Source of the DNA: Bacteroidales bacterium | Lineage (GTDB): Bacteria > Bacteroidota > Bacteroidia > Bacteroidales > P3 | Direction of reading: 5' to 3' | NCBI GenBank assembly: GCA_017449525.1 | Contig: JAFTFL010000012.1 | Span: 57,458-121,457, forward strand | DNA: 64,000 bases | Shown here: positions 12,751-48,036 of the stretch, piece by piece | How positions within the stretch are numbered: the first letter of the stretch is position 1 | How the letters are laid out: every line of letters begins with the position of its first letter | Notes under the pieces: generated by a model | The model's input: only the letters and a program-made list of their open reading frames with translations | The model's database searches: none | Told to the model about the DNA's origin: nothing | Made by a program: the position numbers and the translations under genes

Positions 12751-13212
12751 CGACAATTCTTGCAACTCACCACCTCGTCAGTGGGGGCATGTCTCTCGCG
12801 GCTTGTGCTACGCTGCTGTACGAAGGCGGTGGCTATGCCGTACGACAGTGCGCACCACGTCGTGGGGCGCAGACCTTCATGCCGTACGGCATAAATCCTC
12901 CACAACAAGGTGGGGCGCAGCGCGGTGGCGCAAAAGAGGGATGGGCACCGTACGGCAAGAGGGGTGGATGCCGTACGACTTCACCCGTCGTGCACTATTG
13001 CACCAAGAGTAAATGTGAAACAAAGGACCTGCTGAAAGCCCTGTGTATGGGCGAGACGCTCCTTGAATGCGGGAACGCGACTGCAAAGGTACGAACATTT
13101 CCCGACTGGGGCAAAGGGTGGCCTCCACTTGAAACCTAACCGCTTGGCAGAGGGGGGCAATCTTCGACAGTCATCGCTTCAATGGGATGGCGCAGAGGGG
13201 CGCGTGGCCGTG
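12751..13212. other. Gene-free gap with palindromic GCCGTACGGC motifs
   Basis: No frame here looks coding. It contains four copies of a GTAC-centred motif: around 12837 (TGCCGTACGA), 12879-12892 (a perfect 14-base palindrome), 12948-12955 (CACCGTACGGC core) and 12969-12978 (TGCCGTACGA). The sequence is G+C-rich compared with other gaps. A second minus-strand TAnnTTTG box at 13084-13091 points into the gap. It may encode an RNA or be a repeat element; see findings. Confidence 0.45.
13084..13091 (-). promoter_or_regulatory. Second minus-strand -7 box, no gene directly downstream
   Basis: Minus strand TTCGTACCTTTGCAGTC contains TACCTTTG. About 340 bases separate it from the other box in front of the ROK gene. 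The same string TTCGTACCTTTGCAGTC occurs on the plus strand at 37290-37304, also pointing into a gene-free palindrome-rich gap. Confidence 0.45.
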
Positions 13213-20690: not shown

Positions 20691-22106
20691 ATGAATAAAA
20701 CGAAGCAGCTTCTTAGGTACCTCTTGGCCGATGGGTTGGCTGCCATGCTGGCGTGGGGTTTGTTCTTTGTCTTCCGCAAGGTGGTGCTTGAGCAGGGCGG
20801 TTGGGACGCTACAGCGGAGGTGTTTGCCGATTCGAAATTTTGGTTGGGCATTGTGCTGGTGCCGGCTGGGTGGCTTTGCCTCTACGCTATGCAAGGCATG
20901 TACCGCAACGTGTACAGGCGTGCGCGTTTGAAGGAGTTGCAGCAGACGATGACGGCATCGCTGCTGGGCGTACTGGTGCTTTTCTTCCTGTTTTTGTTGG
21001 ACGACAATCTGCAGTCGTATCGCTCGTACTATTGGTCGTTTCTGTTTTTGCTGCTGGTACATTTCGTGTTGACCTACGTGCCTCGGCTGCTCATCACTAC
21101 TCGTACAGTGAAGCGGGTGCACAATCGCGAGATTGGTTTCCCAACGCTGTTGGTGGGCAGCGGCGCGAAGGCGTGGCGGGTCTACGAGGAGTTGCAGCGG
21201 CAGGAGGTCTATTCGGGCAATCTGTTCGTGGGCTGTGTGAGCATGGATGGCGATGTGGATGAGCGGTTGGCTGCGTCAATGCCCTGCTTGGGTGGGTTGG
21301 CCGATTTGCGCAGGGTGGTGGAGGTGTATGCTGTGGAGGAGGCCATAATGGCTTTCGAGGGTGATGACAAGGTGTGGCGCGAGGTGTTGATGGAATTGAA
21401 CCGGTGCGATGAGCTGATAGTCAAGATAGCTCCCAGTTTGCGCGACATTTTGTTCGGTTCGGTTACGGCCAGTTCAATCTTTCAGTCGCCTCTGATTACG
21501 ATAAATCCCCGTGGCATGGAGCCGTGGCAGTACGCCACGAAGCGGCTGTTCGACGTGGTGTTGTCGTTTGTTGCCATGGTGGTGCTGCTGCCGGTGTACG
21601 CGTTTACGGCACTGATGGTGAAGTTGTCGTCGCCTGGCCCCGTGTTTTATACGCAGGAGCGTGTCGGAAAGGGTGGAAAACCGTTTCGGATGCACAAGTT
21701 CAGGTCGATGTATGTCGATGCCGAGCAGGCTGGGCCGGCGCTGTCGTCGGATGGCGACCCGCGTATTACGCCGTGGGGCAGGTTCATGCGCAAGGTTCGT
21801 TTGGATGAGATACCGCAGTTCTACAATGTGCTGCGCGGTACGATGTCGCTTGTCGGGCCGCGTCCTGAGCGCCAGTATTTCATTGACCGCATTGTGGAGC
21901 GCGCACCAGAATATCTGTTGTTGCAGAAGGTGAAGCCGGGCATCACGTCGTGGGGGCAGGTCAAGTACGGTTATGCCGAGAATGTAGATGAGATGGTGGA
22001 GCGTTTGCGCTTCGATTTGCTCTATTTGGACAATATGTCTTTGGCCACCGACATCAAGATTTTGCTCTATACTGCTATTATTATTGTGCAAGGGAGGGGT
22101 AAGTAG
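20691..22106 (+). CDS. Undecaprenyl-phosphate sugar phosphotransferase (WcaJ/WbaP-like)
   Basis: 471 residues. Four N-terminal membrane helices (within about 10-130) are followed by a Rossmann-like CoA-binding-type domain (about 140-250, TLLVGSGAKAWRVYEEL). A membrane re-entrant helix precedes the catalytic bacterial sugar transferase domain (about 280-471): KRLFDVVLSF, SPGPVFYTQERVGKGGKPF, MHKFRSM, DEIPQFYNVLRGTMSLVGPRPE. It transfers a sugar-1-phosphate, often glucose-1-P, to undecaprenyl phosphate to start exopolysaccharide or O-antigen repeat units at the inner membrane. The other polysaccharide genes expected with it are not in the immediate neighbourhood. Its stop overlaps the next start. 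Confidence 0.92.
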   Translation: MNKTKQLLRYLLADGLAAMLAWGLFFVFRKVVLEQGGWDATAEVFADSKFWLGIVLVPAGWLCLYAMQGMYRNVYRRARLKELQQTMTASLLGVLVLFFLFLLDDNLQSYRSYYWSFLFLLLVHFVLTYVPRLLITTRTVKRVHNREIGFPTLLVGSGAKAWRVYEELQRQEVYSGNLFVGCVSMDGDVDERLAASMPCLGGLADLRRVVEVYAVEEAIMAFEGDDKVWREVLMELNRCDELIVKIAPSLRDILFGSVTASSIFQSPLITINPRGMEPWQYATKRLFDVVLSFVAMVVLLPVYAFTALMVKLSSPGPVFYTQERVGKGGKPFRMHKFRSMYVDAEQAGPALSSDGDPRITPWGRFMRKVRLDEIPQFYNVLRGTMSLVGPRPERQYFIDRIVERAPEYLLLQKVKPGITSWGQVKYGYAENVDEMVERLRFDLLYLDNMSLATDIKILLYTAIIIVQGRGK

Positions 22107-22882
22107 TGAGGACTGATGGGCACCAGGTGGGAAGCCGTCTTGGTCGGTGGCGAGGAGTGTGGCTGTCGCTGTGGGCGGTGGTCGCGCTGAGTGGGTGTGT
22201 CGACAGTGTCGGCATGCTCGACGGGCCAGGGTCGGTGGTGGAGGAGCCGAAGACTGTGGTGACGTTGAGCTCGGGCGATGAGGTGGCGCTTTTCGAGGGC
22301 GACCTGCTTTTCGAGTGCGACACGGCTGGCATGGGTGCTGCGGTGGAGGCTTCCACGGGGCGGTTCACTCATGTGGCTGTGGTGGTGCGTCAAGGAGATC
22401 AGCTGCTGGTGGCCGAGGCCACGCCTCGCCGAGGGGTGGCGCTGCGGTCGGTCGAGGAGTTTATGGCGGAGGGGGGCTGGGTGCAGCCTATGTGGGTGGC
22501 GGTCGAGTACGAGCGCGATTCGGTGTCGCCACGTGTGTTGCGACTGGTGGGGCGTCCGTATGATTTCTATTTCGCGGTGGGCACGGAGCGTCTGTACTGC
22601 AGTGAGCTGGTTGTGGAGTGCTACCGCCTCAAGGGGGGCGCACCGCTGTTCGAGCAGCAGCCGATGAATTTTCTCGATGCCGACGGCCAGTTGCCGCGCT
22701 ATTGGGCGCGGCTGTTCGATTCGTTGGGGTGCGCCGTGCCGCAGGGGCAGTTGGGTAGCAATCCCGATGCGCTGGCTCACAGCGCCTGCTTGCGGCCGGT
22801 GGGGGGACCGATAGCGGTCGGGGAGCGCGCCGAGGGTGGCCGCCAGCATGCCGAGGGTGCTGAGTTTGACAATAACAAATGA
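22106..22882 (+). CDS. YiiX/YebB-like permuted NlpC/P60 lipoprotein hydrolase
   Basis: 258 residues from a GTG that overlaps the TAG of the transferase gene by one base. A signal peptide ending in VVALSGC suggests a lipoprotein. The papain-like fold is recognised by GDLLFECD, the His motif RFTHVAVVV (about 90) and the Cys motif ERLYCSELVVECYR (about 172), i.e. the circularly permuted His-then-Cys order of YiiX/YebB proteins. Activity is likely amidase or peptidase in the envelope. Its stop overlaps the ATG of the CorC-like gene (ATGA), giving a tightly coupled three-gene operon. Confidence 0.8.
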   Translation: MRTDGHQVGSRLGRWRGVWLSLWAVVALSGCVDSVGMLDGPGSVVEEPKTVVTLSSGDEVALFEGDLLFECDTAGMGAAVEASTGRFTHVAVVVRQGDQLLVAEATPRRGVALRSVEEFMAEGGWVQPMWVAVEYERDSVSPRVLRLVGRPYDFYFAVGTERLYCSELVVECYRLKGGAPLFEQQPMNFLDADGQLPRYWARLFDSLGCAVPQGQLGSNPDALAHSACLRPVGGPIAVGERAEGGRQHAEGAEFDNNK

Positions 22883-24183
22883 CCAATAGTATGATAGGTG
22901 TCGTAGTAATAGTGCTTTTGATACTGCTCAATGGCGTGTTGTCGATGTCGGAAACGGCGCTGGTGTCGGTGCGCAAGAGCAAGCTGGAGGCCGATGCCAA
23001 GCGGGGAGACAAGACGGCCGAGGCGCTGCTGCGCATGCTGGCCAATCCCGACCGCTTCCTTTCGATGATTCAAATCGGCATTACGCTCATCGGCATCGTC
23101 AACGGCCTCTTTTCGGGCAAGGCCTATGCCGACTCGTTGGCGTCGCTTTTCGTGCGCTGGGGCATGAATGCAGGGGTGGCTGCGGCGTTGTCGCCGGTTC
23201 TCATCGTGCTGGCGGTAACCTACTTCACCATTGTGCTGGGCGAGTTGGTACCCAAGATGATTGGGCTCAACAAGGCCGAGCGGGTGGCGCGCATCGTGAT
23301 GCGGCCAGTGCAGGTGTGTGCCGTGCTGGCCACGCCCTTGGTGTGGGCCTTGTCGCAGGGCACACGGGCGGTGGTGAAGCTGCTGGGCGTCAAGAACGAG
23401 GAGGGCAAGGTTACCGAGGAGGAGATTAAGGCCATGGTCAACGAAGGCTACGAGGGGGGAGAGGTGATGGCTATGGAACGCGACATGGTGGAGAATGTCT
23501 TTGTGTTGGACAATGTGAACGTGGCCTCGGTCATGACGCATCGCAGCGACTATGTGTGGCTCGACATTGCCGAGCCGCGCGAGCAGATGATGCAGCGCGT
23601 GCGCCAATCGCTCTGCAGCGTCTATCCGCTCTGTTCCCACTCGTCCGACAATGTGTTGGGGGTGCTCTACCTCAAGGACTTCCCTCTGTTGGAGCCCTCG
23701 TGGCAGCAGTTCGACCCGCTCAAGCGCATGCGTGCGGCTCATTTCGTGCCCGAAAGCATGTCGCTCTACCGTGCCTTGGAGGCTTTCAAGCGCACCAAGT
23801 CGGAATACGCGCTGGTCATCGATGAATATGGCACCGTGCAGGGCATCGTTACGCTGCACGACATTGTGGAGGTGCTGGTGGGCGAGCTCTCGCCCGACGA
23901 GGCCAGTAGCCAACGCATCGTGCGCCGGTCGGACGATAGCTTCGTGGTCGACGGTCAACTCTCGTTCTACGAGCTGCTTGAGGCTCTCGACTTGGACCTT
24001 GCCACCGACGACTTGCCCTACCAAACGGTGGCTGGACTCGTGCTGGACATCCTGGAGCACATCCCCGCCGTGGGCGAACAGGTGGAGTGGCATGGCTACC
24101 GCATCGAGGTGGTGCAGATGGACGGTGCGCGCATCGACCGTCTGCTGCTCACGCGGCTGCCGCAGCCGGCCGACGAGGCGTAG
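22879..24183 (+). CDS. CNNM/CorC (HlyC family) transporter-like protein
   Basis: 434 residues. The DUF21/CNNM membrane domain (about 1-190) starts VVVIVLLILLNGVLSMSETALV, with the family S-E-T-A-L motif. A pair of CBS domains follows (about 205-330, VASVMTHRSDYVWLD and EYALVIDEYGTVQGIVTLHDIVE), then a CorC_HlyC C-terminal domain (about 345-425). Family members are implicated in magnesium or sodium-coupled ion efflux in the inner membrane; the name hemolysin is historical. ATGA overlap with the upstream hydrolase gene. A tandem hairpin array begins 35 bp after its stop. Confidence 0.92.
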   Translation: MTNSMIGVVVIVLLILLNGVLSMSETALVSVRKSKLEADAKRGDKTAEALLRMLANPDRFLSMIQIGITLIGIVNGLFSGKAYADSLASLFVRWGMNAGVAAALSPVLIVLAVTYFTIVLGELVPKMIGLNKAERVARIVMRPVQVCAVLATPLVWALSQGTRAVVKLLGVKNEEGKVTEEEIKAMVNEGYEGGEVMAMERDMVENVFVLDNVNVASVMTHRSDYVWLDIAEPREQMMQRVRQSLCSVYPLCSHSSDNVLGVLYLKDFPLLEPSWQQFDPLKRMRAAHFVPESMSLYRALEAFKRTKSEYALVIDEYGTVQGIVTLHDIVEVLVGELSPDEASSQRIVRRSDDSFVVDGQLSFYELLEALDLDLATDDLPYQTVAGLVLDILEHIPAVGEQVEWHGYRIEVVQMDGARIDRLLLTRLPQPADEA

Positions 24184-24218
24184 TTTTTTTCCGAAAAATC
24201 AGAGGTGCTTTTTTCAAT

Positions 24219-24496
24219 CGACCGTGGTCGATTGCCGAACCGACCGTGGTCGATTGCGAAACTGACCGTGGTCGATTGCGAAACCGACCGTGGTCGATTG
24301 TTGAACCGACCGTGGTCGATTGCGAAACTGACCGTGGTCGATTGCCGAACCGACCGTGGTCGATTGCGAAACCGACCGTGGTCGATTGTTGAACCGACCG
24401 TGGTCGATTGCTAAACTGACCGTGGTCGATTGCTAAACCGACCGTGGTCGATTGTTGAATCGACCGTGGTCGATTGCGAAACTGACCGTGGTCGAT
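24219..24496. repeat. Tandem array, 13 units of 22 bp, each with an inverted repeat
   Basis: Units start every 22 bp from 24219; the last (24483-24496) is partial. The first 16 bases, [C/T]GACCGTGGTCGATTG, are nearly invariant, and the last six vary among CCGAAC, CGAAAC, TTGAAC and CTAAAC, ending C or T. Within each unit CGACC and GGTCG form inverted arms around GT; at 24215-24234 the palindrome extends to nine-base arms. There are no spacers, so this is not CRISPR. The last-six pattern repeats in blocks ending with TTGAAC, suggesting growth by multi-unit duplication. The array lies between the CorC-like gene and the Gre-like gene. Confidence 0.97.
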
Positions 24497-24534
24497 GGGT
24501 ACACTAAACCTGGGCACCTGCCGTTATGGGCAGC

Positions 24535-24999
24535 ATGAATAGCAAAGCCGATATGCGCCGACGCGTCATTCAAGCCTGCATGGCTCGCCAACAGGCTGTG
24601 GCCGATGTGGCGCGCAGCGAAATGGATTCCGCCCAGCAGCAAAGCAATGATTACGGTCAGAATGTGGACCGCTACGACTCGTTCCGAACCAAGATGATGC
24701 GCTCGCGCGACATGCACGCCCGCCGCCTCGCCGAGGCCGCCGAAGGGCTGCGCGTGCTCGAGGCACTGCTACGTCAGCCGCCCCACTCGGTGGCCGACCA
24801 CGGCGCGGTGGTCATTACCACCGGGTTGCGCCTCTTCCTCGCCATCGGGCTTGGCAAGTTCGCCCCCGACGATGCCCCCGACGAGGAGTACTACGCCGTC
24901 AGCGCCGCGGTGCCACTCTACGCCGCCGTGCACGGCAAGCGGGTGGGCGACACCGTCGTCATAGCTGGTCGCCTGCACACGATCACCGACATCTTTTAA
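24535..24999 (+). CDS. GreA/GreB-like transcription factor family protein
   Basis: 154 residues from ATG 24535; ATG 24526 adds three residues. The first 80 form a long helical hairpin (ARSEMDSAQQQSNDYGQNVD; RYDSFRTKMMRSRDM) and the C-terminus is a small beta domain ending GDTVVIAGRLHTITDIF, resembling the Gre-factor FKBP-like domain. Homologues are widespread in Bacteroidetes and often misnamed 3-oxoacyl-ACP synthase. A role at RNA polymerase's secondary channel is plausible but unproven. It begins 39 bp after the tandem array, so the array lies in its 5' region. Confidence 0.72.
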   Translation: MNSKADMRRRVIQACMARQQAVADVARSEMDSAQQQSNDYGQNVDRYDSFRTKMMRSRDMHARRLAEAAEGLRVLEALLRQPPHSVADHGAVVITTGLRLFLAIGLGKFAPDDAPDEEYYAVSAAVPLYAAVHGKRVGDTVVIAGRLHTITDIF

Positions 25000-25009
25000 C
25001 CCGCCGCCC

Positions 25010-25783
25010 ATGCTCCGCATTCGTCATCTCCTGCTCCTGTGCGCCGCCCTGTGCTGTGCTTCGTGCACTGCGCCACAGTTGATTCCCGAACCGACAGCCG
25101 ACCTCTCCCTTCCCGAAGCCGACAGCAGCGAGCACCTGCTGCGCTACACCGGTTTCACCTCCTCCTACAACCACACCACCCTCGTGCCCAACTGGGTGAG
25201 CTACACCCTCACTGCCGAGCAGGCACGCGGCACCTATGTCGCCACCGCCTCGTTCAGTCGCGACCCGCAGCTGCGCGGCCGGCAAGCTTCGCGCGAAGAC
25301 TACTCGCGTTCGGGCTGGGACAAGGGGCACATGGCACCGCGCGCCGACATGAAGTGGGACCCCCAGGCCTACTACGAAAGCTACTACTTTACCAACATCT
25401 GCCCCCAGGCTCACGCCCTCAACGCAGGTGCATGGAACGCGCTGGAGCAGCATGTGCGCCTGCTGGCCGAACGCTACGGCGCGGTGCACGTGGTGTGCGG
25501 CCCCATCTTTCACAGCCCCACGCCCCGCACCATAGGAGCAGCCCGTGTGTGGGTGCCCGACGCCTTCTTCAAAGCCCTGCTGCTGCCCCGAGGGGGAAGC
25601 TACTCGGCCGTAGCCTTCGTCATGCCCGCCGACATGGAGCGCGGCTCCTTCCGCCAATGCGCCCTCACCGTCGACTCGCTCGAGGCGCTCCTCGGCCGCA
25701 ACCTATTCGCCGCCCTGCCCGACAGCACCCAGCAGCGCATCGAAAGCCGCTACCGCCTATCCGACTTCGACCTGCGACGGTAG
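25010..25783 (+). CDS. DNA/RNA non-specific endonuclease (NUC1/EndA type), lipoprotein
   Basis: 257 residues. Its lipoprotein signal peptide is LLLLCAALCCASC. The beta-beta-alpha-metal nuclease core has the catalytic motif as DKGHMAPRADM (about 105; DRGH in most relatives), and the magnesium-binding asparagine lies in YYFTNICPQ/LNAGAWNALE (about 125-145). An exported nuclease on the cell surface or periplasm, possibly for nucleic-acid scavenging. It starts 11 bp after the Gre-like gene and is probably co-transcribed. Codon third positions are strongly G+C-biased here compared with genes beyond 55 kb. Confidence 0.9.
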   Translation: MLRIRHLLLLCAALCCASCTAPQLIPEPTADLSLPEADSSEHLLRYTGFTSSYNHTTLVPNWVSYTLTAEQARGTYVATASFSRDPQLRGRQASREDYSRSGWDKGHMAPRADMKWDPQAYYESYYFTNICPQAHALNAGAWNALEQHVRLLAERYGAVHVVCGPIFHSPTPRTIGAARVWVPDAFFKALLLPRGGSYSAVAFVMPADMERGSFRQCALTVDSLEALLGRNLFAALPDSTQQRIESRYRLSDFDLRR

Positions 25784-25869
25784 CCGCCCCGATCGGCCTC
25801 GGCGGTGGAACCGAGTGGCCACGCTTTCGATACTGATAGCGGCCCCTTTCCCAGCCGATCTGCCACAGC

Positions 25870-25913
25870 ACCAAAAACAACGAGGGGGCTGCCCAGTAGG
25901 CAGCCCCCTCGTT
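25870..25913 (-). terminator. Strong hairpin terminator of the SIMPL gene
   Basis: Perfect 15-base arms (25879-25893 and 25899-25913) around a five-base loop. On the minus strand the stem is followed by TTGTTTTTGG, as in an intrinsic terminator. It lies 70 bp past the stop of the minus-strand SIMPL gene and may also stop transcripts from the nuclease gene. Confidence 0.85.
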
Positions 25914-25982
25914 AGCATCATCGGGCGGCGCGCCGAAGAAAAACACCTTTCACCCTATTGCCGCCGCCCCACGCCGATGCGC

Positions 25983-26690
25983 TTACTTCAGGTAGTACTC
26001 CACCGTGGTAACCACGCGCACATTCTTCAGTTGAGGCGTGTTCTCATCGAGGTCGTCCACCGTGAAATAGCCCTGCGATGCCGTCCGCATTTTGCCGATA
26101 CGGCTGTGGCTGTTCTTGGCAAACTCCTCGGCCGACACGCGCGCATTCTCCAAACTCTCGGCAATCATGGACGGCTTGATATCGTTCAGCCCCCGATACT
26201 CATACGAGGCAAAAGCATTGACTATCACATCGTGGTTCAGCAGGTCGGACTCCAAACTGTTCTGCAACTGCTTCACAACATCCATCTTGGTGGTGAAGAC
26301 ATTGATGTTCTGCTCCGCGCCGTAGCGGTAGGAAATGTTGTCCGTATTGTAATAACCATTGTAGCGGTCCATGACCGATGCTGGCGTGTACTTAATCTCA
26401 TCCTCGTCGATGCCAGCTTTGCGCAGCAACTCCACAATCAGCGCATTGTTCTGGCGCAGCGTTTGGCGTATCTCGGTCAGCGAATTGCTTTGGCAACTGT
26501 AGTTGATGCGGTAGATAACGCGGTCGGCCGGCACCTCGCGTTCGCACAGGCCGCGCACCGTAACCGTGTTCTCGAACGACTTGTTGACCCGCACCGCGCT
26601 CACAATGCACAGCCCGACAACGAGAGCAGCCAGCACGATGCTGCCGCCTTGAATCATGTTCTTCTTGAATGGGACATTCCTTCCTTTCAT
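25983..26690 (-). CDS. SIMPL (DUF541) domain membrane-anchored protein
   Basis: 235 residues. One N-terminal membrane helix (about 13-33, MIQGGSIVLAALVVGLCIVS) is followed by a periplasmic SIMPL domain beginning NTVTVRGLCEREVPADRVIY and containing ALIVELLRKAGIDEDEIKYT and ARVSAEEFAKNS. The family forms oligomeric shells in other bacteria (BP26 of Brucella), but a biochemical role is not established. Divergent from the A2M-like gene, with a shared 250-bp upstream region. A strong terminator follows. Confidence 0.86.
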   Translation of the reverse strand: MKGRNVPFKKNMIQGGSIVLAALVVGLCIVSAVRVNKSFENTVTVRGLCEREVPADRVIYRINYSCQSNSLTEIRQTLRQNNALIVELLRKAGIDEDEIKYTPASVMDRYNGYYNTDNISYRYGAEQNINVFTTKMDVVKQLQNSLESDLLNHDVIVNAFASYEYRGLNDIKPSMIAESLENARVSAEEFAKNSHSRIGKMRTASQGYFTVDDLDENTPQLKNVRVVTTVEYYLK

Positions 26691-26939
26691 AGATCAGATG
26701 TTTTGATTGTTTATATATTATGTGTTGATGTCTATTCTGCTCACTGGGCGCGGTGCACAGCCCTTCCCAGCACGGCATCATAAACTGCAAATCGGCAGAA
26801 ATAGTATGTCCCACCCCCAAGCAACCACCTCATGAAGGCAATAATAGGCAGCCTCACGCCGTTATACGGCCGACTCCACGCGGCCAATCGCGCCACCGAC
26901 GCGTCCGCTGCGCAGCGCCCGACAAACACACATACCAAC

Positions 26940-29900
26940 ATGTTGCACAACCTCAAGCACACAATCCTCACCTTTGCTGCCATTGCGGCCGGCATAGGCG
27001 GCATGGGACAAAAGAGCGATACCCCATGGTCGCGCATAGACAAACTGATGGAGCGGGGCTCCTACCAGCAGGCAGACACCTCGGCGCAGCAACTCTTCGC
27101 CTCGGCTTCGGCAAGCGACGACACCCGCTCGCTACTTCTGGCCGCCTGCTATCTGGCCGACATCGAGGCCGCCTACAAAGAGAACGCCTCCGACAGCACC
27201 CAAGCGCGCTTCCGGCTCATCATGCCACGACTTGGCGGCATCGAACTGGCCATAGCCCATGCCCACATGGCGCGCTTCTATAAAAATTATCGCGACGCGA
27301 ACCGTTGGCGGCTCGCCGACAATCGTCCCACCGACGAGGCCGACCCAGACTACAAACTGTGGTCGCTCAGTCAATTCGACGACACCATTCGCCAACATGT
27401 CGCCCAAATGCTTGCCGACCTGCCCTTGCTGCAGCGCACCTCGGTGGCCGACGTGGAACCCTTCTGCACGAAGCTCGGCAGCAAAGGGCTCCTGCTTACG
27501 CCCACCCTCTTCGACGTGCTGACCGAAGTGGCCGTAGAATGCAGCTCCTCGACAGCAGAGTCCATTAGGCTGCGCACCAATCAGGTGAATTTTCACCGCA
27601 CCGACGCGCCCTGCCTGCGCATCCACTGGGAACACGAACTGTGCGATTTGCTGATAGACGACCAGCCACACAATGCGTTGGCCATCGTCCAAGACTGCAT
27701 CGACCGCAATGCCTCCCGCGATTGTCCAGAGGCAGCCTACTTCTACTACCGCAAGGCGTTGCTGCTTCGTGCTCAAAAGAATGATGTGGAAGCACGGCAA
27801 TGTTGCCTAAAGGTCGTCAAGAGTTTCGAAAAAGGCGAGTGGACAGCCGCCTGTCAGAACCTCATCAGCCAAATTGAGGCCAAAGAGATAGCCCTTTCGC
27901 TGAAGCAAACCTCCTCGGTGGGGCTCGACATCTTGGGAACGGCCACCTGCCGCAACCTCAACCACCTATATTTTCGCATCATTGAGCAGGGCGAATGGCA
28001 CAAAAGTTCCACGCCAGCCGCTTACTTGCGCTCGCAGCCGGTGCTGAAAGCGTGGGACCAGTCCGTTCCCGAGCGCGACGATTACCAGGCGCAGACCGTC
28101 TACATCTATCTGCCGTCGATGCCCGCTGGCAAATATGCCCTGCTGGCCTCGCCAACCAAGGACTTTGCCACGGCGCAGGGACTGGTGTGCACCGACTTTG
28201 TAGTGAGCGACGTGGTGTGGCTCGTGGCCGACGATCGCGCCGATGAGTTGTCGGGCTACGTGGTCGGCCGAGCTTCGGGCAAACCCCTCGCGGGGCAAAC
28301 GGTGCAGCTGTTCGTGGACACCTACCGCAACCGCAACCTGCTTTCGACCACGAAAACCGACCGCAACGGCTGGTTCAGCATCAAGAACATCGCCACCAAC
28401 CGCCGTGGTCTACTCCTCTCAACAACGTATAAAGGGCTGGAGTCCACCCAGCAGGTATACCTCCACACTGACTATCGGGACTCATCGGTCAAGTGGGCTT
28501 GTTTTCCCGACCGACCCGTCTACAAGCCGGGCGAGGAGGTGAACTACATGGTCGTGTGCTATCAGGTAAAGGGGCTGGATGATGGCCGCACCTTGCAAGG
28601 GCGGAAGGCGCGCATGAGGCTCGTTGATGTGAACAATCGCGAACTGGCTGAGGACACACTGCGCACCGATGCGTACGGCACAGCCAGTAGCAGTTTCCAT
28701 CTGCCCGCCGACGCGCTGCCAGGCAACTACCACCTGCGGATGGATGGCCACGGTTACTTGGCCACCCTACGGGTAGAAGCCTACAAGCAGCCCAAGTTCA
28801 CCGTTGAACTCCCTGCCGATAACTCGCTTCACCAGTTGGGACGTTCGGCCGAAGTGGGCGGAAGTGCCGTCTCATACACTGGCGTGCCACTGTCGGGGGG
28901 GCAAGTGGAATACACAGTGGAGCGCGAGGAAATGCGCCCCTGGTGGCGCTGGTGGTGGAATACCGACGACGTGTCGGAACGCAAGGTGGTGGCATCGGGA
29001 CGGTTGTCGACCAGCAACGAGGGCGCATTCCACTTTCAATTCATGCTGACACCAGACAGTTCGGTGAGCAAACCGAACGAGCGCATCTACCGTTTCCGCA
29101 TCACAGCTAAAGTAACCGACCTCAACGGCGAGACACACGAGGCCCATCGTACCATCGTGGTGGGCAGAACGAACAGCTATCTGACTGTGGAACTGCAAGA
29201 CGAGATGTCGACCCTTGACACATTGGCTTTCGCCTACAACAACCTTGAGGGTGCCCCGATAGAGGGACGGGTGCGTTTGCAGGTGGAACGGCTTCGTCAA
29301 CCCGAGCATCCGCGGCTGTCGCATCCGCTCATGAGCGCCGACGGTTGGCATGCACTGGACGAGAAGACGTTTGCAGAGCGTTACCCTGTATATGCTTACC
29401 GCGATGACTACAACAAGGCGGCGTCGTGGCCTGTGGTGCAGACCATGATGGATACCTATATTAATATAGGCAGGGAGGCACAGCACTGCGTTGCCCTACC
29501 CAAACTGCCGTCTGGCACCTATCGTATCACGTTGCACGCCGATGACGGCCACGGCGACACTACGTCGACCTACCGCGTCGTAACGCTTACTTTGCCAGTT
29601 GAGAAGAAAGTGCAGTCCCAGCGACTGCTGTGGACATCGCTCAGCACCACTCGAGCCTACGTGGGCGAAAAGGTGCATTTGCGCTACGGAAGCCGTCATT
29701 CCAACACGACGATGTACTACACCTGTGTAGTGAATGGACAGGCTACCGAGCATCGGGTGCTCAACGCATCCGACAAGGTGGGGGAACTCTCGGTCGAGGT
29801 TACTGATCAGATGCTTGGTGGGTTTACTATCAATGTGTGTGCAGTGCACGATGCGGTCGTGGAGCACGAGACGTTTTATGTGGATGTACCGCGCAAACAT

Positions 29901-40651: not shown

Positions 40652-43600
40652 ATGCTTAGCTTTCTCACAAAGCTCTTTGGCAACAAGTCGCAGCGCGACT
40701 TGAAAGAAGTCAAACCCTATCTGGATGCCTGCTTAGCAGCATATCCAGCTATTCAACAACTCGACAACGACGCTCTTAGAGCAAAAACACTGGAGTTTAA
40801 GGAGACTATACGTCAACGTGTGGAAGCCGAGGAGACCGAATTGGCAACCCTTCGCGAACGAATAGAGACCGAATACGACATGCCAGTAGAGGAAAAGGAA
40901 TCTATCTACCGTCGGATTGACGAGCTGGAAAAGACGGCGTACGATAAGACTCAAGAGGTGCTTAACGACATTCTCCCCGAGGCATTTGCTGTAATGAAGG
41001 AGACTGCACGCCGGTTCGCTGAGAATGAGGAGGTGGAGGTGTCAGCTACCGACCGCGACCGCGACTTGGCTGCTACGCGTGAAAGCGTCAGCATCAGAGG
41101 CGACAAAGCCTACTTTAAGAGCACCTGGATGGCAGGTGGCAACATGATACGGTGGAACATGGTGCACTATGATGTTCAAATCATAGGTGGTGTGGTGCTC
41201 CACCAAGGCAAAATAGCCGAAATGGCGACAGGTGAGGGTAAGACCCTTGTGGCCACGCTACCAGTCTACCTCAATGCGCTACCAGGGAAAGGTGTGCATG
41301 TGGTTACGGTCAACGACTACTTGGCTAAGCGCGACTCGGAGTGGATGGGTATGCTCTTTGAGTTCCACGGGCTGAAGGTGGACTGCATTGACAAGTACGA
41401 ACCTCACAGCGAGGAACGCAAGGCTGCATATAATGCGGACATTACCTATGGCACCAACAATGAGTTCGGTTTTGACTACTTGCGCGACAACATGAGCCGC
41501 AACCCCTCGGAACTGGTGCAGCGGTCTCATAATTTCGCGATTGTCGACGAGGTGGACTCGGTGCTGATTGACGATGCCCGTACACCTCTTATTATATCTG
41601 GCCCCACAGGTAAAGGGGATGATGACCAGGAGTTCAATCGATTCAAGCCTGTGATAGAGAAGCTCTACAACGTGCAGCGCACCCTTGTGTCGCAGTCGTT
41701 GGCCGATGCCAAACGTCTGATAGCACAAAACCCCAATCCCAAGCCAGAAGAGGAGGGAGCGAAGGCCTTGTTGCGTGCCTACCGTGGATTGCCGAAGAAC
41801 AAGCCCCTCATAAAGTTCCTCTCGGAAACAGGTATCCGCTCTATTTTGCAGCACACCGAGAACTTCTATATGCAGGAGCAGAACAAATTCATGCATATCA
41901 TCGACGATGACTTGTACTTCGTCATCGACGAGAAGAACCGTACGGTGGAACTGACTGACAAGGGCATGGATTATTTGGCAAGCCTGGGTGAGAACCCCGA
42001 CTTCTACCAGTTGCCTGACATTGGTTCAAAACTGGCCGAGCTGGAGCAGCAAGGACTATCCCCAGAGGAAAAAGCAGCGAAGAAGGAACAGATATTGAGC
42101 GACTATGCTGTGCAGTCAGACCGGGTGCATACGGTGGATCAGTTGCTGAAAGCCTACACCTTATTTGAGAAGGATGTGGACTACATTGTAACTGAGGATC
42201 GTCAAGTCAAGATTGTCGATGAGCAGACTGGACGTATTATGGAAGGTCGCCGTTGGAGTGACGGATTGCATCAAGCAGTGGAGGCCAAGGAAAATGCAAA
42301 GATAGAGGCCGCCACGCAGACCTACGCCACCATCACGCTCCAGAACTACTTCCGTATGTATAAGAAGTTGTCTGGCATGACTGGTACTGCAGAAACAGAG
42401 GCTGGAGAGTTCTGGGATATCTACAAACTCGATGTGGTAGTCATACCTACGAACCGCCCCATCGCGCGTAAGGATATGGACGACATGATCTATAAGACCA
42501 AGCGCGAAAAGTTCAAGGCCGTTATTGATGAGATTGAACGTCTCATTCAAGAAGGGCGTCCAGTGTTGGTGGGTACTACTTCGGTTGAAACATCCGAGCT
42601 TCTGAGCAAGATGCTCAAGATGAAAAAAATTCCACACAATGTGCTCAATGCAAAGTTGCATAAACGTGAGGCAGACATTGTGGCGGAGGCAGGAGAGGCT
42701 GGTAAAGTTACCATCGCAACCAACATGGCAGGCCGTGGAACCGACATCAAGTTGGGTGAAGGCGTAAAGGAAAAGGGTGGCTTGGCCATCATCGGAACCG
42801 AGAGACACGAGAGCCGCCGTGTGGATAGACAACTACGTGGACGTGCCGGCCGTCAAGGTGATCCGGGTACGTCCCTCTTCTTTGTATCACTTGAAGACGA
42901 CTTAATGCGTCTTTTTGGTTCGGAACGCATAGCCCGCATCATGGACCAAATGGGTCTGCAAGAAGGTGAGGTGATCCAGCATTCCATGATTACAAAGCAG
43001 ATTGAGCGTGCGCAAAAGAAGGTGGAAGAGAACAATTTTGGCATGCGTAAACGACTGCTTGAGTACGACGACGTAATGAATAATCAGCGTACGGTCATCT
43101 ACAATAAGCGTCGTAATGCGCTCTATGGAGATCGACTCTCTATTGATGTGTCCAATATGTTCTACGACACCGTGGAATATTTGTACAACGAAGCGCTTCA
43201 GAATCGTGATTATGAAGGTTTCAGTCTGAACATGATTCGGGTGTTCACCGTGGAGCTCCCATATAATGAGCGTGAGCTTTTCAATGGGAAGGCTGATGAA
43301 ATGATTAAGCAGCTCTATACACTGGTGTATGACAACTTCCAGGAGCGGTTGCATCACATCGGTGAGTTGGCATTCCCATTCATCAAGAATATATATGAGA
43401 ATACCCGCTATGAAAACGTGGTCTTCCCAATAACCGATGGCAAAAAGGTGTTGAATGTCATAGCTCCTGTCAAGAAAAGTTACGAGACACACGGTAGGGA
43501 AGTAGAACTCTCCATCGAGAAAGGTATTACGCTTGCCGTTATCGACGACCTGTGGAAGGAGCACTTGCGTGAATTGGATGATCTGAAGACTTCGGTGCAG

Positions 43601-43960
43601 AATGCCAGCTACGAACAGAAGGATCCTCTGCTGATTTACAAGTTTGAGTCGTTCAACTTGTTCGAAAAGATGATGCTGGAGATTAATCGAGAGATTGCAT
43701 CATTCCTGTCGCGTGCTGCACTGAAGTTACGTGAGGACTCGGAAGTCAGAGAGGGACATGTGCCGCAGAGCAATGATAAAGGGTTGCGCACGTCGCGGAA
43801 CGAACAGCAGGCATCGGCCCAGTCGACCAATACGGCATCCAAGGAGAAGCCGCAGCCTGTGCATGTGGAAAAACGAGTGGGACGTAACGATCCCTGTCCG
43901 TGTGGGTCGGGCAAGAAGTACAAGAACTGCCACGGACGCGAGGATCAGGGAAACGAGTAG
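40652..43960 (+). CDS. secA: Preprotein translocase ATPase SecA
   Basis: 1102 residues from ATG 40652 ([19 protein letters not shown]); the GTG at 40550 would add 34 residues containing the promoter. Walker A is [17 protein letters not shown] (about 191) and Walker B region [16 protein letters not shown] (about 298). The helicase-like second nucleotide-binding fold contains [13 protein letters not shown] and [15 protein letters not shown]. The C-terminal zinc-binding SecB/ribosome site is [16 protein letters not shown] (about 1080). The protein is longer than E. coli SecA (901), as usual in Bacteroidetes because of insertions in the first nucleotide-binding domain. It drives Sec export and is monocistronic with a strong terminator. 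Confidence 0.97.
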
Positions 43961-44017
43961 TCCTGCTATGAGTTACAACTAACAGCTATGGCTGGAGAAT
44001 GGCCGTGGCAGTGAAAC

Positions 44018-44062
44018 GGGGTGATATATTCCTCTTTAGGAATGTATCACCCCTTGTTCATT
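44018..44062 (+). terminator. secA terminator
   Basis: Sixteen-base arms (44018-44033 and 44038-44053, one G-U pair) around a four-base loop, then TTGTTCATTCT. Located 58 bp after the secA stop. Confidence 0.8.
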
Positions 44063-44072
44063 CTGGCTCCAA

Positions 44073-44314
44073 AGAACTGAACGTATCTTCTCATGATGTT
44101 AAGCATGTGAACTCAAGACGTTTTGAGTATAGCATCATGATGCTGAATAGTATATTCTATGATGTTATAAATCTAATCTCGTGATGTTGAATATGAAACT
44201 CCAAGACGTTGTAAATCTAACTCCAAGACATTGTAAATATAACTTCATGACGTTGAATTTATAATCTTTAGATGTTATAAATGCAACCTCATGTCGCTAT
44301 ATAATTAATAGGTG
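44073..44314. repeat. Degenerate A+T-rich tandem array, 11 units of exactly 22 bp
   Basis: The core GAYGTT or a one-base variant begins at 44095, 44117, 44139, 44161, 44183, 44205, 44227, 44249, 44271 and 44293, a strict 22-bp spacing. A weaker unit starts at 44073. The consensus is roughly GAYGTTGTAAATCTAACTYC followed by AA or AT; the units at 44205 and 44227 are the most alike. Unlike the array at 24219, units have no strong internal palindrome. It fills the gap between the secA terminator and the convergent ribonuclease Z gene. Confidence 0.85.
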
Positions 44315-44400
44315 GTGGAACGGCTCAGCAGGACAATTTGCTGTATGCAAGAATAGGGGGCGTGCGCTTCGACAGGTAGTGCGGCTCGGCACAGGTTGGG

Positions 44401-45333
44401 TTAGACTGGTGCGTTGGTGATGGGAATCTCGAAGGAAGCGGCGTCAGCTGCAGCTTGTGTGTTCGGAAAGATTACTTGTGCTTCGGCTATCAACGTGGAT
44501 ATGTCTTTGTAGCGTGCTGAGAAGTGGGTTAATAGCAGTTGCTTCACGTTGCCTTCTTTGGCGATGGTGGCGGCCTGCGTCGTAGTAAGGTGGCGGCGTT
44601 GCTCTGCAAGGTCGCTTCGGCTGTTGTCGAAGGTGCTCTCAAGACACAGTAGGTCAACCCCTGCCACGGTGGGGGCTATGTCGTCGGCAAATGCTGTGTC
44701 GCAGCAGTAAGCATAGCGGCGTGCTGGCCTTCGAGGGTGTGTTAACTGACTGTTGGGCACAAGGGGCTGATTGGGGCGTTCCAAGTCTTTGCCCAGTTTT
44801 AAGAGTCGACATTCGTCGGCGGTAATGTTGTATTGCTGAATGGCTTCTTTACGGATGTTGAGGTAGGGAGTGGCCTCTTCGAATATAAATCCATAGGTGG
44901 GCACGCTGTGATGGAGAGGGAAGGCGACGACCGAACACTGGTCGTTTCGGAACACCTCCGTTGGGGAGGTCTGCTGTAGCTCATGGATGCGTAGCTCGTA
45001 GGCAAGGCGTGTGTCGGAAAGGTCGAACAGCATGTCGAGCAATGTCTTAAGACCTGGAGGGGCGAAGAGGTCGACTGGCTCGGTGCGTCCGCACAGGTGC
45101 ATCGAGGCAAGCATACCAGGCAAGCCCCACAGGTGGTCGCCGTGCAGGTGGGAAATGAAGATAAGTGAGAAAGATTGCAGTCGCTGACGGCAGTAGCGCA
45201 GTTGGGTTTGTGTGGATTCGCCGCAATCCAGCAGGATATGGAATCCACCGATGTTGATAGCCTGAGCGCTGCAGTGTCGACCCAATGTCGGGGTGGCTGC
45301 ACCCGAGCCGAGTATGGTAATTTCGAATTTCAT
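44401..45333 (-). CDS. rnz: Ribonuclease Z (tRNase Z)
   Basis: 310 residues, the usual short-form length. The metallo-beta-lactamase core begins ITILGSGAATPTLGRHCSAQ and contains the zinc motif FISHLHGDHLWGLPG (about 58-72). Later metal ligands are in YCCDTAFAD (about 212) and LLLTHFSARY (about 268). It trims the 3' trailer of tRNA precursors; this matters here because the window's tRNA-Gly does not encode CCA. It is the last gene of a likely three-gene minus-strand operon (SSS symporter, DUF4831, rnz), starting 47 bp after the DUF4831 stop. Confidence 0.95.
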   Translation of the reverse strand: MKFEITILGSGAATPTLGRHCSAQAINIGGFHILLDCGESTQTQLRYCRQRLQSFSLIFISHLHGDHLWGLPGMLASMHLCGRTEPVDLFAPPGLKTLLDMLFDLSDTRLAYELRIHELQQTSPTEVFRNDQCSVVAFPLHHSVPTYGFIFEEATPYLNIRKEAIQQYNITADECRLLKLGKDLERPNQPLVPNSQLTHPRRPARRYAYCCDTAFADDIAPTVAGVDLLCLESTFDNSRSDLAEQRRHLTTTQAATIAKEGNVKQLLLTHFSARYKDISTLIAEAQVIFPNTQAAADAASFEIPITNAPV

Positions 45334-45380
45334 GCTGAGTTATTGATGAGGAGGGTGTAGTGTGGAGAGTAAATGGTCGT

Positions 45381-46529
45381 TTATCGTGCCGAGTAAAACA
45401 GTAGGGTGCCTGTTTGTGGGTCGAACAATGCTTGTCGACATCTAATAGGGAGCCGCACCGTGGGGCCGTTCTGTAGGATATCTACTTGTTGTTCCCAAGT
45501 GTGGTCGCCAAACGTAAGACTGATGGTGGTTGGCTCAGGAATGCGATATTTTATGGAGTGCCGTTCGGTGTATCCCAGTCTGCTGCTTCGGGTTGCATGG
45601 TATTTGTGTATACGTGCCACAGTCTTCATCTCGCCACTTGGTTGCTGTGAGCACCACAGCGTGTCCACGTCGGTAGGCATTTGCTTCTGGTTGGACTGAA
45701 CTATGCCAATGCTGGGGGAGAATAGGAGTAGGGGGTACTCGTCCTCATTGTCCATTGAGGTGGGGTCTACCACGATGGTTACGGTATCCAAGTGGATTAC
45801 ACCACGAAAACGTGCTATGTATGCAGATAGTTCGGCCTCAATCTTGTCGAGTAGCAGGGTGAGTGTCCGAGGGTCGAGTGGTGTCTCTTCTTCACCGTTT
45901 AGCAGTTGCATCCTGCGATGCTGCAACTCTTCAATACGACGGGCTGCCTGCTGCGCTTGACTTCGCAGTGATCTGTGGTCGCGCATGGCCACAATTTTCG
46001 AGGGGCGGCCAGGTTGGTCGTGGCGTGTGTAGAAGGTGTCGGCGCGGTTGTACGTAGCATCAACGCTTCCTTTGAAGTCGGTGGTACCAGCGTGTGCAGA
46101 CCCCGCAGGCGCAGGTGAAACAGGGGAACTGGGTGCGGCATCGGTTCGGAAACCGATGGCTTGCAGCAGGTGCCTACTATTGGTCTGCATGCTGCTGCGA
46201 AGGGGGGTAACCCAATAGTAGCCCTTCGGGTCGGCTACGGTGGTGGTGGTTATCTTGATGTCGCGTATGCTGTTTGGAATTGGGGTGCTGTCTGTGTCGC
46301 CGAGCATCTCCTCGGCAAAGGCGGCGAAGTCGGCCTGCGAAAGGTCTTGACTTGCTGTGATGACGGTTATGCGCAGTTGGGTGAGTGGCAGTGCATAGAG
46401 CATGCCTCCCGACACAGACGCTTGCGATTGCTTGTTGATGGGCGTGACCTTGAATGAGGCGCAACTGCTGACGAGGAGTGTCAGCAGAAGACTGGCGGCT
46501 ATGTATCTCTTGTGTGGATGGGGGTGCAT
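45381..46529 (-). CDS. DUF4831 family lipoprotein
   Basis: 382 residues. The lipoprotein signal peptide ends LLTLLVSSC. The mature part contains MLYALPLTQLRITVITASQ, GYYWVTPLRS, FYTRHDQPGRPSKIV and a central helical stretch LRSQAQQAARRIEELQHRRM. The pattern fits DUF4831, a Bacteroidetes family of unknown function that I recall being found near rnz. The start lies 10 bp after the symporter stop, so the two are co-transcribed. A role in the envelope is implied only by the signal. Confidence 0.8.
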   Translation of the reverse strand: MHPHPHKRYIAASLLLTLLVSSCASFKVTPINKQSQASVSGGMLYALPLTQLRITVITASQDLSQADFAAFAEEMLGDTDSTPIPNSIRDIKITTTTVADPKGYYWVTPLRSSMQTNSRHLLQAIGFRTDAAPSSPVSPAPAGSAHAGTTDFKGSVDATYNRADTFYTRHDQPGRPSKIVAMRDHRSLRSQAQQAARRIEELQHRRMQLLNGEEETPLDPRTLTLLLDKIEAELSAYIARFRGVIHLDTVTIVVDPTSMDNEDEYPLLLFSPSIGIVQSNQKQMPTDVDTLWCSQQPSGEMKTVARIHKYHATRSSRLGYTERHSIKYRIPEPTTISLTFGDHTWEQQVDILQNGPTVRLPIRCRQALFDPQTGTLLFYSAR

Positions 46530-46539
46530 AGTGGTGGCT

Positions 46540-48036
46540 TTAATGATTAGGAGCGGAATCTGACGGTGGCATCGCTTGGGTGGTCGGTGTGCTACACAAG
46601 AGTAGGCCGATGTAGGTCAGTAGTCCGTTGATGAGCAATATCTCGAAACCTATCTGGTAGCCTGCAAACCAGTCGGGCGACTTCGCCTTCAGAATGTAGC
46701 ATAGCATTGGGCTGACAACGGCAATGAATGGTACGGCCTTGTCGTGCACAGTCCTCTTGGAAAAGAGGCCGAATGCGTAGAGGCCGAGCAGCGGCCCATA
46801 GGTGAAGCCTGCTACATCGAACAGTGTGTCGATGAGCGACTGTGTGTGAAAAGGCCGGAAGGCTATGATGACCAGTAGGTACAGCAGAGCGAAAGCGATG
46901 TGTGCTGTTTTGCGAATGCGAGTTTGACGCGCTTCGCTCCATCCACGCTTGTCGAAGTGTAGAAAGTCGAAACAGAAGGTGGTTGTGAGGGCGGTCAGTG
47001 TGCCGTCGGCACTGGAGTAGCCCGCTGCCACCATGCCCAGCACAAATACGATGGCTGTAAACTGGTTCAGCGAAAAGGCTATGGTTGGGAATATCTTATC
47101 GGCTTGCACCTGTCCAGCCGCATTGGTGGGCAACTGCATTCCCGTGTTGGCGGCATAGTATATGAGGGCGGCGCCAAGCGAAAGGAACAGCACGTTCACC
47201 ACAATGAACAGCAGGCTGGAGGTCATGACGTTCTTTTGCGCATCGCGAAGTGTTTTGCAGGTGAGGTTTTTTTGCATCATGTCCTGGTCGAGTCCCGTCA
47301 TGGTGATGGTGATGAAGGCACCAGCCAGTATTTGTTTCCAATAGTACTTGGGGTGCGCAAAGTCGGTCTCGAACATGCGGGTATAGCCACCTTCGGCTGC
47401 ATGTTTCATCAGTTCACCGAACGACATGTTCATATTGCGCAGCAGTGCCACCACCGTTACCACGGCCGCCAAAATGAGGAAGGTCGTTTGCAACATGTCG
47501 GTCCACACCACGGTTTTTAATCCCCCCTTGAGGGTGTAGAACAGGATGAGTACTATGAATATGACGGCGGGTATCCAGAACGGAATACCCCAACTGCTAA
47601 AGACAAATTCGTAGAGCACGTACACCACCAAATACATCCTCAGCGCAGAGCCCATGAGGCGCGACAGGACAAAAAACAAAGCCCCTGTACGCTCAGAATG
47701 AATGCCGAAGCGCTGTTGCAAGTAGGTGTAGATAGAGGTGAGTTGCAGTCGGTAGTAGAGAGGCAGCAGTAGCAGCGCAATGACGGCGTAGCCGATGACG
47801 TAGCCAAACACCAAGGGCATATAGGTGAATTGGCCGTAGTATACACCGCCAGGCACCGACATAAACGTGACGCCCGATAGTGATGCTCCAATCATGCCGT
47901 AGGCCACGACGAACCACGGTGAGCGTCGGTTGCCACGAAAAAATGAGTCGTTGTCTGCTTTGCGCGAGGTGAGCCACATGACGCCGAATAGCAGCGCCGT
48001 GTATGCAAGAAAACATAGCAGAATGCTTTGTTCCAT
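46540..48036 (-). CDS. Sodium:solute symporter (SSS/SLC5 family)
   Basis: 498 residues with about 13 membrane helices. Family landmarks: FRGNRRSPWFVVAYGMIGAS near the start, GVTFMSVPGGVYY, the central GLDQDMMQKNLTCKTLRDAQ (about 252) and VLGMVAAGYSSADGTLTALT (about 338) with the conserved sodium-site serines. The substrate is unknown; the family moves sugars, amino acids, vitamins or sialic acid with sodium. It heads the operon with the DUF4831 gene and rnz. A -7 box lies about 270 bp upstream, giving an unusually long leader. Confidence 0.9.
   Translation of the reverse strand: MEQSILLCFLAYTALLFGVMWLTSRKADNDSFFRGNRRSPWFVVAYGMIGASLSGVTFMSVPGGVYYGQFTYMPLVFGYVIGYAVIALLLLPLYYRLQLTSIYTYLQQRFGIHSERTGALFFVLSRLMGSALRMYLVVYVLYEFVFSSWGIPFWIPAVIFIVLILFYTLKGGLKTVVWTDMLQTTFLILAAVVTVVALLRNMNMSFGELMKHAAEGGYTRMFETDFAHPKYYWKQILAGAFITITMTGLDQDMMQKNLTCKTLRDAQKNVMTSSLLFIVVNVLFLSLGAALIYYAANTGMQLPTNAAGQVQADKIFPTIAFSLNQFTAIVFVLGMVAAGYSSADGTLTALTTTFCFDFLHFDKRGWSEARQTRIRKTAHIAFALLYLLVIIAFRPFHTQSLIDTLFDVAGFTYGPLLGLYAFGLFSKRTVHDKAVPFIAVVSPMLCYILKAKSPDWFAGYQIGFEILLINGLLTYIGLLLCSTPTTQAMPPSDSAPNH

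Follow-up and report, generated by a model that had tools for sequence, protein, structure and literature searches.

What a row of thirteen evenly spaced 22-bp palindromes does between a membrane protein gene and a small gene on the same strand is the question raised by one intergenic region of a Bacteroidales genome, which we analysed within a stretch of 64,000 nt (hereafter the window). An earlier note on this DNA had described 13 units with a strict 22-bp period, and this description stood: TRF delimited the array at 24219-24496 with a period of 22 and 12.6 copies, and the core occurs 13 times, first at 24219, with 12 of 12 spacings being exactly 22 bp (Table 1). The inverted repeat that the note had seen is present as well, and in the first unit it extends to a longer dyad. 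The core is nearly invariant across the 13 units, its first base being C in nine of them and T in four. As for the variable tail, the three bases that follow ATTG do differ (CCG, CGA, TTG or CTA), but the TTGAAC ending ascribed to it is found in just two of the 13 tails, and TTGAA[CT] in only three; the last unit diverges after CGAT. These linkers follow one another in the order CCG, CGA, CGA, TTG, CGA, CCG, CGA, TTG, CTA, CTA, TTG, CGA, and the recurrence of the same types suggests that the array grew by blocks of units.

Table 1. Features of the array region in the window, and units of related arrays elsewhere
Feature	Position in window	Strand	Basis or sequence
Array of 13 units of 22 bp	24219..24496	+	TRF and core spacing; core [CT]GACCGTGGTCGAT, dyad CGACC-GT-GGTCG
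Extended 20-bp dyad of first unit	24215..24234	+	Sequence, CAATCGACC-GT-GGTCGATTG
CNNM/CorC-type membrane protein gene, 5' of array	22879..24183	+	Pfam CNNM, CBS, CorC_HlyC
157-aa gene, 3' of array	24526..24999	+	Without Pfam family
Array unit, Bacteroides finegoldii HU-HIG protein WP_022275594.1			TGTCACCCTATAAGGTGCCGTT
Array unit, WP_237923596.1, relative of WP_022275594.1			TCGTCTGACAGTTGTTATACTT
Example palindromic units of HU-HIG arrays			CCACTCGAGTGG, AAACCCGGGTTT, GAGTCTATAGACTC, ATCATACGTATGAT, CACACCATGGTGTG

The gene upstream of the array had been taken for a CNNM gene, in agreement with its Pfam match (PF01595, E 2.4e-48), and the label "Gre-like" for the 157-aa gene found no support, as a Pfam search with its product returned zero matches at E ≤ 1. 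The 157-aa gene is present in 107 of the 119 genomes of the genus that were searched, our own included, and in the loci of 29 relatives, inspected up to ~1.5 kb on each side, the CNNM gene never adjoins it, so that the comparison yielded no readable insertion or empty site.

The earlier note had suggested a search of the complete genome for the core and had named absence of the unit elsewhere among the signs that would reduce the array to an inert minisatellite; the unit does recur outside the window. In 2.53 Mb of genome sequence the 12-base core was counted 22 times, compared with once for the reversed pattern, so the array is not a product of chance. The occurrences fall in four places: the window (contig C24), C5:134.3k, C8:6.8k and C15:156.5k. 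The array at C5:134.3k has eight units. C8 is identical (100%) to the end of C5 over 19,744 bp (G000 C5:121500-141295), a duplication that is probably assembly redundancy, and the copies on these two identical contigs were counted once. At C15, 3.2 copies of the unit lie 71 bp before the ATG of a gene for an HU-HIG protein, and TTTTTCAATCGACCGTGGTCGATT, which covers most of the 20-bp dyad of the first window unit, is present in front of this gene too.

The gene behind the C15 array is an open frame of 167 aa, whose product (P0001) belongs to the HU-HIG family (Pfam PF18291, HU/IHF superfamily) with 44.2 bits against a curated cut-off of 26.2; against NCBIfam TIGR01201 HU_rel it scores 33.1 bits, under the cut-off of 68.6. 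An AlphaFold2 model built from 36 sequences reached a pLDDT of 86.4, superseding an earlier one from six sequences (54.4). Its best fold match in the PDB is 4fmr, a putative DNA-binding protein of Bacteroides vulgatus (E 9e-7), followed by HU and IHF chains. Behind the HU/IHF-superfamily domain the sequence carries a Gly/Ser-rich acidic tail, and P0001 thus shows the combination by which HU-HIG proteins are recognized, an HU/IHF fold plus a tail (wHTH, Ig or Gly-rich). A search for P0001 in plasmids and phages gave zero matches. The expansion of the HU-HIG family in Bacteroidetes was reportedly described by Burroughs and colleagues in 2017.

The window array shares with HU-HIG-linked arrays a tandem unit of 20-25 bp with dyad symmetry, and differs from them in having no HU-HIG gene directly downstream. 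Contig C24 has zero PF18291 matches at E ≤ 0.01, and positions 21001-28000 of the window hold no HU-HIG remnant at E ≤ 0.05. The likeness of the window and C5:134k copies to the C15 locus is confined to the array, and a flank shared by these two copies was absent by eye. Because the window array has the unit of the C15 home array without an HU-HIG gene of its own, we call it a dispersed copy. The window holds one more 22-bp array, built from imperfect palindromes of a different unit (AACTCCAAGACGTTGTAAATAT), at 44186-44264 between a plus-strand and a minus-strand frame, its imperfect units being visible by eye from ~44081 to 44300; no HU-HIG match was found around it (42001-47000).

We then turned to other genomes. 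An exact scan of a genome-contig collection (84,980 species by its description) found the window unit at three other loci, in assemblies named Bacteroidaceae or Bacteroidales: one from buffalo rumen, one from sheep reticulum and one called RUG14675, a designation from a rumen series. Each of these assemblies carries one array, which in all three ends 34-35 bp before a related HU-HIG gene; the two proteins compared are 49-51% identical to P0001. A second cluster of the unit was not found in these three genomes with up to 2 mismatches. Within the genus, an exact tandem pair of the unit is present in one of 120 genomes, our own, and P0001-like proteins are rare too, with 4/120 genomes at E ≤ 0.001, own included. 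Viral contigs contained 0 stretches of the unit.

We favour, with a probability of about 0.62, a reading in which the C15 HU-HIG home array has a dispersed copy in the window, predicted to be bound by P0001 as a set of helically phased dimer sites. The earlier suggestion of a likeness to iterons or operators, with a dimeric protein as the ligand, gains from the same unit standing in front of an HU-HIG gene both here and in the three ruminant assemblies. The window array would then be either a second target or a relic. Several observations count against the favoured reading: the home array is shorter and more degenerate than its presumed copy (3.2 units, compared with 12.6 in the window), the orientation relative to the next gene is opposite in the window units and the ruminant home arrays, and the usual view of HU-superfamily proteins is that they bend DNA without selectivity.

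To our knowledge, tandem palindrome arrays linked in cis to HU-HIG genes have not been described, and in the open-access literature, a scope outside which most subscription journals fall, we found no report of them. We scored an array when TRF reported, within 320 bp upstream of the gene, a repeat with a score ≥ 50, a period of 20-25 and ≥ 2.5 copies. By this rule 43 of 94 HU-HIG genes have an upstream array, and 51 of 94, which count against our reading, have none. The positives comprise 4/6 in our genome, 20/49 in the genus (9 of 29 loci as returned and 11 of 20 chosen mostly next in rank) and 19/39 in the order (7 of 19 as returned and 12 of 20 picked from HU-HIG-rich genomes, so that the rate for the order is not a fair one). 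One of the 43, at L129, is a 7-bp repeat, without which the count is 42/94. Dropped before counting were L056 and L185 (upstream too short), L055, L058 and L059 (the places of L066, L093 and L065) and L064, L067 and L113 (broken frames), and the three ruminant loci, having been found through their arrays, were kept outside the 94. Of the loci scored as negative, L057 visibly has ~2.5 copies of a 21-bp GACACGTGTC repeat, and L118 carries a single unit of the type found at L063. At the dropped locus L059 (C17, 1128-1666; the place of L065), three successive different 22-bp arrays lie upstream of an HU-HIG gene 67% like P0001.

The same rule was applied to other genes, in stretches chosen by hand away from HU-HIG matches. 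Results showed an array in 4/276 upstream windows of a 400-kb sample of our genome and in 0/71 in the loci of the 29 genus relatives. The four positives comprise a dispersed array of the L063 type, an array within a reading frame, and a single GCCGTACGGC array that was scored twice, once from each of its neighbouring genes. The window's own upstream regions, excluded from these 347, gave 2/41, both being the window array. The difference between 43/94 and 4/347 has a Fisher p of 1e-28, and own genome plus genus alone (24/55) give 1e-19. Short canonical-type HU genes, moved to the control (L068-L070 and L190-L198, 12 loci, one of them too short), had an array in 1/11. At L068 (C16, 1952-2242), such a gene and a frame on the opposite strand are separated by some thirteen units of 22 bp, whose palindromes are of the AATGCGCATT type.

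In named records of a plasmid collection, an array of 21-22 bp was found at 7 of the 11 loci examined among the matches listed (17 rows, two records twice), where HU-HIG identity rests on tblastn plus annotation instead of Pfam. The loci with an array come from Bacteroides finegoldii, Phocaeicola massiliensis and Parabacteroides distasonis, and the array-less loci belong to Prevotella nigrescens, Segatella copri, one B. finegoldii and one Bacteroides sp. One of the named HU-HIG loci is annotated as a DsbA family protein. A gene for a 'smalltalk protein' is common to the array-less Prevotella and Segatella loci (L230, L232), and upstream of an HU-family gene on plasmid pCACC737_3 of Bacteroides sp. 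CACC 737 (L240:510-605) a long imperfect inverted repeat in ~22-bp steps, with no plain tandem array, was seen by eye.

The 42 arrays found by the rule and the ruminant three (45 in all) are built alike. The period is 22 bp in 25 of them, 23 in 10, 21 in 8, and 24 and 20 in one each, and the distance from the 3' end of the array to the ATG has a median of 71 bp and lies within 130 bp in 38/45. It is the longer proteins, those with a tail, that have arrays: 35 of 56 HU-HIG genes of at least 150 aa compared with 7 of 38 shorter ones, a short class that speaks against our reading. When 97 HU-HIG proteins are placed on a tree, the array label needs 18 changes, compared with 32.6 after shuffling (0/500 as low), and in one clade 20 of the 24 rows have arrays. 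Among the 45 arrays, a TAnnTTTG box was found 5' of six, only on the 3' side of eight and inside one, and was not seen in 30, a scatter that gives no general promoter rule. At the named loci, by eye, the box is just 5' in 6/7 arrays.

In the 45 arrays the consensus units had more dyad symmetry than shuffled versions of themselves (Stouffer z 10; z > 1 in 29/45), but a stricter, ungapped test per array reached p ≤ 0.05 in only 11/46, which weighs against the favoured reading. Paralogs within one genome mostly have different units, and a single shared regulator or binder is therefore unlikely; the exception is a pair of paralogs in one genome (G181: L199 and L202, 90% identical) with like units. 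Among 88 pairs with at least 45% protein identity, which include the ruminant trio found by its array, the mean unit score was 8.67 compared with 5.81 after permutation (0/2000 as high). Against a tight pairing, similarity of proteins and similarity of units are weakly rank-correlated when all pairs are taken (rho 0.07), and units are not alike in the 60-80% identity bin (11 pairs, mean 5.18). Pairs at ≥ 80% identity number 14; in 8 of them the units clearly resemble each other (score ≥ 17) and in 6 they do not (5-10), indicating that the code is able to shift quickly. The two half-sites of the L063 family vary in concert: the better units of our genome read TGT[AC]AAG/CTTGACA and those of genome G100 read TGTCGC[GA]/CGCGACA.

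Arrays of one build but with differing units stand before many HU-HIG genes, so that each protein probably recognizes private sites and exerts its regulation through them. In the mechanism we propose, each HU-HIG protein would bind its own palindrome as a dimer. A step of 22 bp puts successive sites on one face of the DNA, and the protein could thus coat the phased array and repress its own promoter. A home array would spread by segmental duplication of array plus leader, after which the gene part of the duplicate would be lost and the units would expand or decay. At the window, the protein would coat the region between the CNNM and 157-aa genes and alter transcription through it. More tentatively, and with rather less confidence than we place in the reading of the window array, HU-HIG proteins may form a large class of self-addressed nucleoid proteins, with fast-changing palindromes private to each paralog, self-shutoff on at least three helically phased sites, recruitment to orphan arrays, several private pairs per genome, and codes that diverge between species. 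For the large expansion of HU-HIG genes in Bacteroidales, no experimentally tested function is known to us.

Units other than that of the window are dispersed in a similar way, and these copies bear on whether the window array is still in use. For L063, an HU-HIG gene of our genome (C15:94.7k), further copies of the unit lie at C5:127.4k, with the array and the first 40 codons of a truncated HU-HIG gene (348 bp, 88.5% identical), and at C3:36.7k, with array, leader and ~10 codons' worth of DNA (181 bp, 89%). In genome G084, the unit of the L125 gene recurs on C204 with the leader and ~3 codons, and on C97 in an array that is cut off by the end of the contig. In 3 of 4 dispersed copies of these two further units, array and leader are thus joined to the truncated beginning of an HU-HIG gene, which fits decay as well as function. 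The left half of the L063-type unit is worn in many own copies, most of all at C5. In genome G100 the single extra match to the unit is one site, and in genome G032 the unit is found at home only, a point against our reading. Two unlike arrays of the HU-HIG type lie ~7 kb apart on C5:121500-141295.

According to the strongest alternative, the window array is the 5' part of a duplicated HU-HIG locus that lost its gene, expanded as a minisatellite by slippage and is now functionless; its origin is the same as in the favoured reading and only present use differs. The three plainly truncated duplicates and the linker types recurring in blocks, as slippage would produce them, agree with such a relic. 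On the other side stand the near-invariance of the core in 13 units and a likeness to home that does not go beyond the array itself, with no HU-HIG remnant in 21001-28000 at E ≤ 0.05, and we consider a functionless relic unlikely, if well ahead of the alternatives that follow.

The arrays might instead serve another process, such as recombination, replication or partition, with HU-HIG genes adjoining them as architectural partners and not as owners that read the sequence. Iterated sites before the gene of a DNA-binding protein also mark plasmid iterons and parC-type centromeres, copies of array plus leader with broken genes suggest recombination at arrays, and an ATPase gene is next downstream at two array-bearing B. 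finegoldii loci (L233, L235). However, units mostly differ between the paralogs of one genome, and no partner gene is common to all own, ruminant and named loci inspected (three of the named ones being unannotated there), so that we regard this explanation as improbable. Plasmid iterons and parC likewise place a phased row of repeats before the gene of the likely binding protein; unlike them, HU-HIG arrays are chromosomal, go with a protein of the HU superfamily and with many paralogs that mostly have their own unit, and have dispersed copies.

It is less probable still that the palindromes act as RNA, forming in a CNNM-157-aa transcript a chain of hairpins that would terminate, attenuate or stabilise it. 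The two neighbouring genes do share a strand, and the intergenic RNA folds far better than its shuffles (z -8.0), but any DNA palindrome folds, and several cores are perfect palindromes without a natural loop (CCACTCGAGTGG, AAACCCGGGTTT). In 21 HU-HIG arrays the non-Watson-Crick pairs in the sense of the gene were 21 G-T, 36 A-C and 45 others, so that the G-U excess expected of RNA stems is absent. A terminator finds no support either: no GC-rich stem followed by a T run occurs inside the array, and the sole terminator-like site in 24000-24700 lies outside the array and is at chance level.

The BrickBuilt elements of Porphyromonas gingivalis, to which the earlier note had likened the core, consist of 23-nt tandem direct repeats at many places in a Bacteroidales genome, with terminal inverted repeats like those of IS elements, the unit quoted being AGAYCATARTATCCTCTCRTRTG (PMC4596501). 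Although the window unit is likewise tandem and found at several intergenic places of one genome, a MITE-type mobile element of this kind is scarcely credible here, as the 120-bp flanks contain no inverted match ≥ 8 bp, all five inverted pairs reported are confined to the array with its edge (24210-24388), no flank common to the copies in the window and at C5 is visible by eye, and the unit differs from the 23-mer quoted.

A partial precedent for the favoured reading, a bound array of HU-HIG sites, is offered by the HU protein PG0121 of P. gingivalis, which has been studied together with a 77-bp inverted repeat at the 5' end of the capsule locus (PMC3969353); the likeness is one of description, that system having a single long inverted repeat whereas HU-HIG loci have a tandem array. 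If the reading is right, a family thought to be unselective would be unexpectedly selective, and an array in cis with a unit of its own would give each HU-HIG protein a readable target. Private arrays would turn many orphan genes into testable pairs of protein and site, and would illustrate a way for a fold without sequence specificity to acquire one that evolves fast.

Arrays of 22-23 bp make up 19 of 39 TRF rows (some overlapping) in the 400-kb sample of our genome, an excess for part of which HU-HIG arrays may account. The palindrome GCCGTACGGC occurs in 22-23 bp units at L074:7649-7708, L083:17892-18014 and L219:1322-1384, with ACCGTACGGC at 12934-12977 of the window; other units make up the best arrays upstream of the six intact HU-HIG genes in our genome.
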